Shown one piece after another: positions 34,808-37,324 of a stretch of DNA of 64,000 bases. Location: positions 1 to 64,000 of the forward strand of contig JAPPLM010000042.1 in NCBI GenBank assembly GCA_028874195.1, read 5' to 3'. How positions within the stretch are numbered: the stretch's first letter is position 1; each line of letters starts with the position of its first letter. The stretch is from Chloroflexota bacterium. Its GTDB lineage: Bacteria > Chloroflexota > UBA11872 > VXOZ01. The position numbers and the translations under genes are program-made. The notes beneath the pieces were generated by a model, which was not told the DNA's origin, made no database searches, and worked only from the letters and a program-made list of their open reading frames with translations.

Positions 34808-35659
34808 CTAGTCGTCTCGCAGGCGCTGTTCGAGCTTCTGGAGAGCGTTTTGCGTAGCGCGGAGTTCGCGCAGCAATTCTTCCCTTGACACCGGGGTCTC
34901 AATGTCACGGAGGCGTTCGAGCTTCGCTTCATCCAGGTTGTTGATGATGATGGCGATGAACAGGTTGATTATGACGAATGTGCCAACGACGACAAAGCTT
35001 ACGAAGTACACCCACGCGAGGGGATGGAGTTCCATGGCTTTGAACATGACCACCGTCCATCCCTCCAGCGTAATGACATTGAAGAGCGTCAGGACAGACA
35101 TACCGAGATTGCGCCAGTTCTCCGGGTCGTGTTCGCTGAAGAGATGGTAGCCAATGATGGCGTAGATATATACGATGATGCTCATCAGCATGATGACGTG
35201 TCCCACGCTGGGAATGGAATGGACAAGCGCGGTAACAATGAGCCGCAGTTCGCGAATCGTCGACACAAGGCGCAGAACCCGTAGCAGCCTGACGAGGCGG
35301 GCGATGGTGGCGAACTGCCCGGTCACCGGTATCAAGGCAAGGACAATTACAAGAAAGTCAAAGACATTCCAGCCGTCGCGAAAATACCCGAATACGCGCG
35401 GCGAGGAAGCAAACATCTTGAGCAGCGCCTCCAGCACGAATATGCCCAAGGCTACCTCGTAAAAGAGGTGAATCCACGTGCCGTACTGCCGCTCCAAAGT
35501 GTGGGAGGTGCCAACGCCTAGCAGAATCGCATTTATGATGATGGCAATGATGCCGATTTCGAAGGCGCGCGCATCTGTTATTCGGCGGGCTATGTTTGTA
35601 AACCTATCCATTACCGGAAATCTTCGCTTCGTGAAGTCTCGAAGTGGATGTTCGCGCAA
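34808..35659 (-). CDS. BacNav-type voltage-gated sodium channel
   Basis: A 283-residue six-helix ion channel subunit. S4 carries Arg at every third position (R121, R124, R127, R130 in ARLVRLLRVLR). The pore has FNVITLEGWTVVM; NaChBac has TLESW at this place, so Na+ selectivity is likely. The C-terminal helix (EELLRELRATQNALQKLEQRLRDD) is a coiled-coil for tetramers, as in NaChBac. A shorter start at MDRFTNIARR (35611) is possible; the TTG at 35659 has GAGGG upstream. Confidence 0.88.
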   Translation of the reverse strand: MREHPLRDFTKRRFPVMDRFTNIARRITDARAFEIGIIAIIINAILLGVGTSHTLERQYGTWIHLFYEVALGIFVLEALLKMFASSPRVFGYFRDGWNVFDFLVIVLALIPVTGQFATIARLVRLLRVLRLVSTIRELRLIVTALVHSIPSVGHVIMLMSIIVYIYAIIGYHLFSEHDPENWRNLGMSVLTLFNVITLEGWTVVMFKAMELHPLAWVYFVSFVVVGTFVIINLFIAIIINNLDEAKLERLRDIETPVSREELLRELRATQNALQKLEQRLRDD

Positions 35660-35723: not shown

Positions 35724-36419
35724 CTAAGGCGAAAGGCTGTTAACAGGCAGGATGCCCAGACGTATGCCGGTGACCACCGCCTCCAGCTTGGTGCTGGCTT
35801 GGAGTTTTTTGCGCAAATTGCGAATGTGGTTGCGCACGGTATGCCGGCTGATGCCCAATTCCACGGCAATCTGTGGGGTGGCCCAGCCGAGCGCCATCAA
35901 ACGGAGCACTTCTTGCTCCCGTTCGGTCAGAATTGGAGTCTCCGCGCGAGGCTCGGGTGCGGTCGGAGCGTCCGACAAGATGTCCGCGCCTCCCGCGACC
36001 AGCACGTCCCGCAGCGTTTCTTTGGCTTCGTCGAAGTCTTCTGATCCCTCTTGGTCAGCAAAGAGGTGCACGAGGAGGGGCGCGTTCTTGAAGATGCCCG
36101 ATACCACCATGGGCATAATGTTGACCCATTTGCGCTCACCGGAAGAGCAAAGCACCTGAAGTCGTGACGTGGCCGGCACCAGACCGGCGCGCAAGCAATG
36201 GAGCGAAGGGCATCCCTGCAAACACTGCGGCGTCAAGGCGCCCGGAGCGATGCCCGCGACGACCTCGTAGCAGCGGCGGCCCAAAACCGCCTGGGAAGGG
36301 AAGCCCAATATCCGCTCCGCAGCGCGATTCCAGAAGACAATAGTCTGGTCCACGGTGACCCCGTATGCGCCGCAGGAAGCGTTAGCCAGAGATGAAAGTA
36401 ACCCAGCCGCAGTGGTCAT
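35724..36419 (-). CDS. PAS-LuxR transcriptional regulator
   Basis: A 231-residue regulator. An N-terminal PAS domain (YGVTVDQTIVFWNRAAERILGFPSQAVLGRRCYEVV) contains a Cys cluster (CLQGCPSLHC, residues ~66-75) that may sense redox or bind a cofactor. The C-terminal LuxR helix-turn-helix is LTEREQEVLRLMALGWATPQIAVELGISRHTVRNHIRNLRKKL. No cognate target is visible. Confidence 0.88.
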   Translation of the reverse strand: MTTAAGLLSSLANASCGAYGVTVDQTIVFWNRAAERILGFPSQAVLGRRCYEVVAGIAPGALTPQCLQGCPSLHCLRAGLVPATSRLQVLCSSGERKWVNIMPMVVSGIFKNAPLLVHLFADQEGSEDFDEAKETLRDVLVAGGADILSDAPTAPEPRAETPILTEREQEVLRLMALGWATPQIAVELGISRHTVRNHIRNLRKKLQASTKLEAVVTGIRLGILPVNSLSP

Positions 36420-36726
36420 AGCCCGAGACCACGATGGGTTGCATGAACGGGTGGATTCTGGGTGGTAGTCAAGAGATGCCTATGGCCCTCTAATCCGGCT
36501 TGTGGCAACCTTTACAACCCTTTACGCAACGCATAGAGATAGATTCTACTGACGGTAGGGTCTTTCACGCAGTTGGCCTATGACACCGTAGTGGCGCTAT
36601 TGCAATCCGGTGCAGCTCAAGTTCGGGATGTGAAGTTTCCCAATGGTACCAGACAAGTCGATGTGCAACAAGGCAAAAAAAAGACAGAGAACCGGAAGAG
36701 GAATGGCACACAGAATAGCACGTATG

Positions 36727-36735
36727 TGCTATAAT
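36727..36735 (+). promoter_or_regulatory. Extended -10 promoter of the ncRNA candidate
   Basis: TGCTATAAT at 36727-36735 is a perfect TGnTATAAT extended -10. No good -35 is present, as allowed for extended -10 promoters. The predicted transcription start is around 36740-36742, which is exactly the 5' end of the closing stem of the structured RNA. Confidence 0.6.
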
Positions 36736-36739
36736 ACTT

Positions 36740-36987
36740 CACAGGCTTAAATATTACGAATTGCTGTGAACAAGCACGGCGTTTGACAACTTGCGGCCTC
36801 GGACAGACTTACGAATTGGAGCAAGCATTGTACCATAACGTTCGATTAGACCTTCGGGTGCCCTCGCCGGGCGACCGGCTAGGCTGATTTCCGAGGCAGA
36901 ATGCCTGTGGTTCAATTGCCTGCGACCCATTCCACTATCCCCAAGACCCCGCGCTACACCACCACCCGGCGCGGGGTCTGTCTTTTT
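36740..36987 (+). ncRNA. Candidate structured non-coding RNA, ~245 nt, unknown class
   Basis: Between a strong extended -10 and a strong terminator there is no credible protein. CACAGGC (36740-36746) pairs with GCCTGTG (36903-36909); inside it GCCTCGGA (36796-36803) pairs with TCCGAGGC (36890-36897). Small hairpins include ACC-TTCG-GGT (36850-36859) and GCCGG-GCGA-CCGGC (36866-36879), both with stable tetraloops. I checked for tmRNA, SRP, RNase P and 6S hallmarks and did not recognise them, although the nested stem-bubble-stem layout loosely recalls 6S RNA. Confidence 0.45.
36944..36986 (+). terminator. Rho-independent terminator
   Basis: Perfect 11-bp stem AGACCCCGCGC (36944-36954) / GCGCGGGGTCT (36969-36979), a 14-base loop, then TCTTTTT. 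It acts on + strand transcripts, for which the only source nearby is the promoter at 36727. Confidence 0.85.
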
Positions 36988-37324
36988 CAGACGATTGCGC
37001 GCATGGTCGGCTCTACGTAGCAAAGCGTTGGTGAGAGTGTGCTTGGCAGCGAGCACCGTAAAGACGGAGAAGGGTCTACCTGCGGCAGCAGAGCCGCAAG
37101 ATTCTCACCATCTTACCCCGTGCGAGCTTGAGAAACGATGAGAAGGGTTGCCGATACCCGAAGATACGGACGATTGCCAGCTACCAGAGGAAAAGCTAGC
37201 CCCTCATTCTACAGGATCGGCCAGCCACGCACGGAAGAGGGGCAGGCAGAGGCCGCAAGAGCGGCGAACTCCCGCGAGAAAGCTGGGAGTTATGGGGACT
37301 ACACGTCTAATAGGTCGAGCAGGG

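Follow-up and report, generated by a model that had tools for sequence, protein, structure and literature searches.

Does an intergenic stretch that carries a promoter-like element and a terminator-like hairpin constitute a small RNA (sRNA) gene, and if so which part of its transcript is under selection, what might it act upon and does it belong to a known family? The question is raised by positions 36727-36987 of a 64,000-nt stretch of DNA from a Chloroflexota bacterium (positions 1 to 64,000 of contig JAPPLM010000042.1, assembly GCA_028874195.1), referred to in full as the window, for which a preliminary description had proposed a novel structured sRNA. We analysed the 3.5 Mb assembly containing the window together with five congeners, a small sample of six genomes of which three are close to one another (those of the window and of the homologous loci L003 and L004).

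A probable small RNA gene and its neighbourhood

The candidate gene occupies about 245 nt of the plus strand (36740-36988), the start being placed about 6 nt past the -10 element and the end at the T-run, and homologous loci are present in all six genomes of the genus. The extended -10 promoter element reported previously, TGC-TATAAT (36727-36735, plus strand), is shared without change by the two closest relatives, while the other three carry the recognisable variants TATGCTACAAT, TGTGCTATATG and GTGTTATAAT, with a distance from the -10 to the end of the 3′ hairpin of 235-270 nt in the genus relatives. No convincing -35 box was found in the window sequence upstream of it. Direct reading of the sequence reveals an inverted repeat, TAGCAC-GTAT-GTGCTA (36716-36731, plus strand), that overlaps the promoter and is perfect in the window, has one mismatch in L003 and L004 and is unclear in the other genomes; it is a possible operator. 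Intergenic location combined with an independent promoter and terminator was thus evident from sequence and conservation, and conservation across six genomes supports well the proposal of a novel sRNA gene with its own transcription signals. We consider it highly probable that the stretch is a real, previously uncatalogued sRNA gene.

In all six genomes the sRNA lies upstream of, and divergent from, a gene encoding a PAS-LuxR regulator (35724-36419, minus strand). The 231 aa protein combines an N-terminal PAS domain with a C-terminal LuxR-type HTH, and its gene is followed by one for an ion-transport (voltage-gated-like, Ion_trans) channel (34808-35659, minus strand) in a synteny that is kept across the genus. 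The divergent arrangement gives about an even chance that the PAS-LuxR protein controls transcription of the sRNA. Midway through the LuxR-sRNA intergenic region, at 36572-36600, is a GTCTAYG block (GTCTATGA / GTCTACGC) that keeps its position in nearly all of the six otherwise poorly alignable regions and possibly represents a regulator site or a second promoter. The tRNA-Ala and ribosomal protein genes described as neighbours do adjoin the sRNA, as tRNA-Ala and rpmA, in the window and in L006; they do not adjoin it in L003 and L004, and this adjacency is therefore incidental. The sequence at 36990-37320 differs between the relatives L003, L004 and L006, with tRNA-Ala-rpmA in some and unrelated sequence in others, and the differing downstream DNA marks a rearrangement point directly behind the sRNA hairpin.

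Conservation of the 3′ module

At the level of the alignment, conservation is carried by a C-rich linker and the loop of the terminator hairpin, both of which the preliminary description had missed; it identified the gene correctly but emphasised the wrong structure. The conserved module consists of an unpaired linker, CCACUAUCCCC (36932-36942, plus strand), near-invariant in the six genomes and proposed here as a first seed, followed by a hairpin with ACCACCACCC in its loop. This GC-rich hairpin of 11 bp with a 14-nt loop (36944-36979, plus strand), a probable terminator stem supported by the alignment of six genomes, is present as originally described, with arms at 36944-36954 and 36969-36979 followed by GTCTTTTTC. 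The loop motif CACCACCACCC (36957-36967, plus strand), a proposed second seed, is kept in all six genomes and predicted to be unpaired in each, with a probability of about 1.0. The T-run past the hairpin (36983-36987, plus strand) is TTTTT in the window and interrupted or absent in the relatives. Our terminator scan missed the hairpin because a 14-nt loop exceeds the limit of the scan.

The six-genome consensus comprises the linker CCACU(A/U)UCCCC, the hairpin stem and the loop (A)CCACCACC(C). Across the six genomes 38 of the 67 columns of the 3′ module are invariant, while the 5′ 190 nt can be aligned only among the three close genomes. L012 has a rebuilt stem around a preserved loop motif, and two stem pairs are changed on both sides (n = 6 sequences), which is supportive of the hairpin without being conclusive at this number of sequences. 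The predicted unpaired probability of the linker is 0.50-0.98 across the six RNAs (0.92 in the window RNA) and that of the loop at least 0.97 in all six, against an RNA mean of about 0.4. In both sequence and predicted unpaired state the motifs thus have the conserved accessibility looked for in the seeds of base-pairing sRNAs.

The remainder of the RNA offers far less. Folding energy of the whole RNA is below that of shuffled sequences (z about -3; -3.2 for the window RNA), and upon removal of the 3′ hairpin and linker z becomes -1.7 in the window RNA and +0.3 and +0.6 in L005 and L006, so the fold signal stems mostly from the 3′ hairpin. The closing stem that had been proposed, CACAGGC/GCCUGUG, forms 7/7 pairs in the window and 5/7 in each of the two closest relatives (L003 and L004), the nested helix GCCUCGGA/UCCGAGGC declines from 8/8 pairs to 7/8 and 6/8 in the same two genomes and the UUCG-like tetraloop is CUCG in both. 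As substitutions break them in the two closest relatives, the closing stem and the nested 7-8 bp helices are unsupported, and we rejected these helices as conserved structure. The GCCGG(GCGA)CCGGC hairpin, also put forward previously, does not vary among the three close genomes and hence carries no information. An imperfect rod-like hairpin (36813-36932, plus strand) is predicted in the window, L003 and L004 and was unrecognisable in the other three genomes (L005, L006 and L012); we give it little weight because it shows almost no covariation. The 5′ part (36740-36809, plus strand) is less conserved even among the three close genomes, with 19-25 invariant columns per 30-column block versus 24-30 downstream.

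Distribution and relation to known RNA families

DNA searches recovered the full RNA in two congeners (89-90 % identity) and only its 3′ 60 nt in two further congeners, and a diverged copy in the sixth genome was located using the adjacent LuxR-like gene as an anchor. A covariance model of the 3′ module matches all six genus genomes and returned nothing convincing outside the genus among 400 Chloroflexota genomes; the strongest of the outside matches (L020-L033), upon inspection, were ordinary terminators behind a tRNA-Met or a protein gene. When 84,980 genomes were scanned for the pattern, the only matches besides genus members were two, in Maribacter and Aestuariivirga, both of which have poor model scores and were dismissed as chance, and a DNA search of plasmids gave no match to the sRNA. 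An Rfam scan, which had been suggested as a check on novelty, produced only a tRNA at gathering score in the window and no family for the sRNA, while permissive thresholds yielded nothing credible in the region or the homologous loci. Judged by these searches, the sRNA is most likely a new RNA family of a familiar kind, confined to one Chloroflexota genus.

A similar mode of conservation has been described for the rhizobial sRNA alpha-r14 (NfeR1), which has three hairpins with an ultraconserved unpaired CCUCCUCCC and variable stems, pairs with G-rich leader sequence and is expressed under a transcription regulator (PMC10746234). Both RNAs keep short C-rich unpaired motifs amid variable stems, and the model RF02344 (ar14) shows a weak resemblance over the terminator, at 20.6 bits versus a gathering cut-off of 58.8 bits. 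However, alpha-r14 carries CCUCCUCCC in three hairpins whereas our sRNA lacks it, having ACCACCACCC in one loop and CCACUAUCCCC in the linker, and alpha-r14 comes from a different phylum with no evidence of homology. We rejected membership of alpha-r14, as the motif differs and the score is far under the cut-off, and on these two grounds the sRNA would constitute a new family.

The genomic arrangement has its own precedent in E. coli, where gcvA encodes the activator of the divergently transcribed gcvB (PMC1557403). Here too the sRNA is divergent from the gene of a DNA-binding regulator in 6/6 genomes, although GcvA is of LysR type and the regulator here a PAS-LuxR protein, and the sRNA has no sequence relation to GcvB. 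Control by the neighbour has been shown for gcvA/gcvB, whereas for the PAS-LuxR protein we infer it.

A candidate target and a proposed mode of action

To look for partners we searched the six genomes for exact complements of the linker and loop and then picked orthologous matches. One cluster fell in the sense strand of a leader, the linker complement GGGGATAGTGG being present in four of the six genomes (G000, G002, G004 and G005) in front of the gene next after a Mur-ligase (murF-like) gene, at a distance of about 56 nt from the ATG. All four leaders also have GGGTGGTT on the 5′ side of this site, and the GGGTGGT part of GGGTGGTT, spotted after the linker complement, is complementary to ACCACCC of the loop. 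The leader segments GGGUGGUU and GGGGAUAGUGG, both invariant, are arranged antiparallel to loop and linker, as simultaneous pairing with both would require. An alignment of the four leaders contains three invariant runs of at least 8 nt, CGGGGATAGTGG (12), TGTGCGTCCG (10, in a hairpin) and GGGTGGTT (8), of which the longest and third-longest (12 and 8 nt) are the two complements; column shuffling gives P = 0.016 for an invariant run of 12.

The leader, with several hairpins, was delineated at L105:2503-2690 (minus strand) and upstream of position 1501 in L106, L107 and L108. Its consensus fold has six covarying pairs, for which reason we regard the leader itself as a structured RNA, and places GGGGATAGTGG between hairpins, with the first motif partly drawn into a weak outer helix; the sites are only partly unpaired in predicted folds (0.27-0.62). 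In two genomes the downstream reading frame stays open some way upstream through the site, and in the other two it closes just before the ATG, showing that the leader is not coding.

The downstream gene (L098:1497-2507, minus strand), conserved in all six genomes, encodes a predicted secreted HNH/GmrSD_C-like nuclease. Its product has a secreted-like start and the HNH/GmrSD_C-type nuclease pattern DIDHMVPLAEVH...NDLTL...SNRSKG, together with a TP-rich linker and an Excalibur-like end, DGDGDGxVCE. Both Pfam matches sit just below the curated cut-offs (22.2 versus 23 and 21.5 versus 22 bits), making the designation of secreted nuclease probable, not certain. A secreted nuclease could possibly allow use of extracellular DNA.

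When targets were ranked by the energy of a two-part duplex over a sample of about 470 kb of the sRNA's own genome, the nuclease leader came 4th, excluding the antisense of the sRNA itself; the three better-ranked sites lie inside coding sequence or antisense and are overlapping sites, not two-site leaders. A reversed-pattern control gave no comparable leader cluster in four genomes. Exact 11-mer complements outside the sRNA locus are not clearly commoner than in the reversed control (26 versus 17), and searching the six genomes for the loop complement as an 11-mer turned up no conserved leader cluster other than the sRNA locus. Further orthologous pairs sharing the linker complement, where inspected, were antisense to coding genes and were set aside.

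Neither site occurs in the nuclease leader of G001 or G003, although both genomes keep the 3′ module of the sRNA, and it is these two whose LuxR proteins are the most distant. In these two genomes the structured leader is replaced by unrelated sequence. The nuclease therefore is not the reason why the module is kept there. We attribute the sites to the closer clade, and an sRNA that acts by base pairing must have further, shared targets. Among the six genomes we saw no position at which sRNA and target had changed in a compensatory way. Taking these observations together, we put the chance that the nuclease mRNA is a real target somewhat below even.

The best explanation of the locus, and one that these sequence patterns make reasonably likely, is a trans-acting base-pairing sRNA of about 245 nt that is probably controlled by the divergent LuxR protein. 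We think it similarly likely that it acts by base pairing through its C-rich motifs. The PAS-LuxR protein would sense a signal and control transcription of the sRNA, in an arrangement like that of gcvA/gcvB, transcription would end at the 3′ hairpin, and the two C-rich unpaired motifs would serve as seeds for G-rich mRNA leaders. The candidate target in 4/6 genomes is the leader between murF and the predicted secreted HNH-like nuclease with its Excalibur-like domain. Pairing would be expected to lower translation or stability of the nuclease mRNA, the sign of the effect being a guess. GcvB relies on Hfq, whereas Hfq was not detected in this genus, so any sRNA chaperone would be another protein. 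A more specific proposal is that the PAS-LuxR sensor and the divergent sRNA form a signalling unit in which linker and terminator loop clamp two G-rich segments of the structured nuclease leader, a two-point contact between folded RNAs apparently made without Hfq; this we regard as doubtful.

Alternative explanations

If only the 3′ hairpin mattered, as a conserved terminator or 3′ element insulating the intergenic region with no function in trans, it would be natural for the best-conserved element to be a terminator-like hairpin and for model matches outside the genus to be the ordinary terminators of a tRNA-Met and a protein gene. A terminator however needs a stem and a U-run, yet here it is the linker and loop that persist, whereas the stem has been rebuilt and the U-run is decaying; moreover conservation extends to the promoter, and on the plus strand there is no upstream gene whose end the hairpin could mark, the LuxR gene being divergent, and we judge this reading unlikely. 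The retention of short C-rich unpaired motifs while all else drifts, in a genus where Hfq was not detected, would also suit an RNA that titrates a protein, its repeated ACCACC / UCCCC motifs sequestering an RNA-binding protein as CsrB-like RNAs do. Against this, there are two motif sites only and no array of many, no candidate protein was identified and base pairing accounts better for the complementary sites in the nuclease leader, which leaves titration quite unlikely. A short mRNA for a small protein is suggested by a short plus-strand frame in the window, with an ATG near 36901, that crosses the 3′ module, but in L005 a stop codon interrupts this frame and in L006 the frame is shifted, and 1-nt indels occur in the sRNA region between close relatives. 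Just one ORF reaches 60 aa, an overlapping one of 100 aa on the minus strand, and it has no Pfam match, in keeping with the initial reading that no credible protein is encoded, and a coding function is highly improbable.

The remaining alternative is a diverged housekeeping RNA, chiefly 6S RNA (RF00013), acting on RNA polymerase via a long rod with a central bubble. Our sRNA is of similar length, the three close genomes fold the rod-like hairpin at 36813-36932 and the genus has no recognisable 6S RNA, even behind aspS. The 6S explanation had been raised at the outset; a search of 36600-37100 gave no 6S match even at E up to 10, nor did the model match elsewhere in the same genome or, at E up to 3, in the five homologous loci. 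The same model found 6S RNA in 44 of 201 Chloroflexota genomes, 36 of them over the cut-off, including three of the same class and another family (L095, L096 and L097), where RNAs of 170-180 nt lie behind a gene that we take, from its protein sequence, to be aspS, a location different from that of the sRNA. In the genus itself no 6S RNA was detected behind aspS (L100-L104) or elsewhere in the genomes searched, and it is therefore missing or unrecognised there; in 4/5 genomes where aspS was found, what comes after it is a short hairpin and then another gene. This amounts to an apparent loss or extreme divergence of 6S RNA in the genus. A common fold of rod, closing stem and central bubble was not found in L005, L006 or L012, and the closing stem is broken in L003 and L004. 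Unlike the constrained 6S RNA, the sRNA has a body that cannot be aligned between congeners and gives no fold signal in L005 and L006, while its conserved C-rich linker and terminator loop are features that 6S lacks. With no score, no conserved rod and another genomic position we rejected a 6S identity, and consider a diverged RNA of this kind very unlikely.

Conclusions

No characterised sRNA from Chloroflexota was found in the literature that we searched. The locus described here offers, within one genus, a conserved sRNA together with its likely regulator and a specific candidate mRNA partner. If the proposed two-point pairing is true, it would represent an sRNA-mRNA circuit outside the usual model phyla, tied to the degradation of extracellular DNA.
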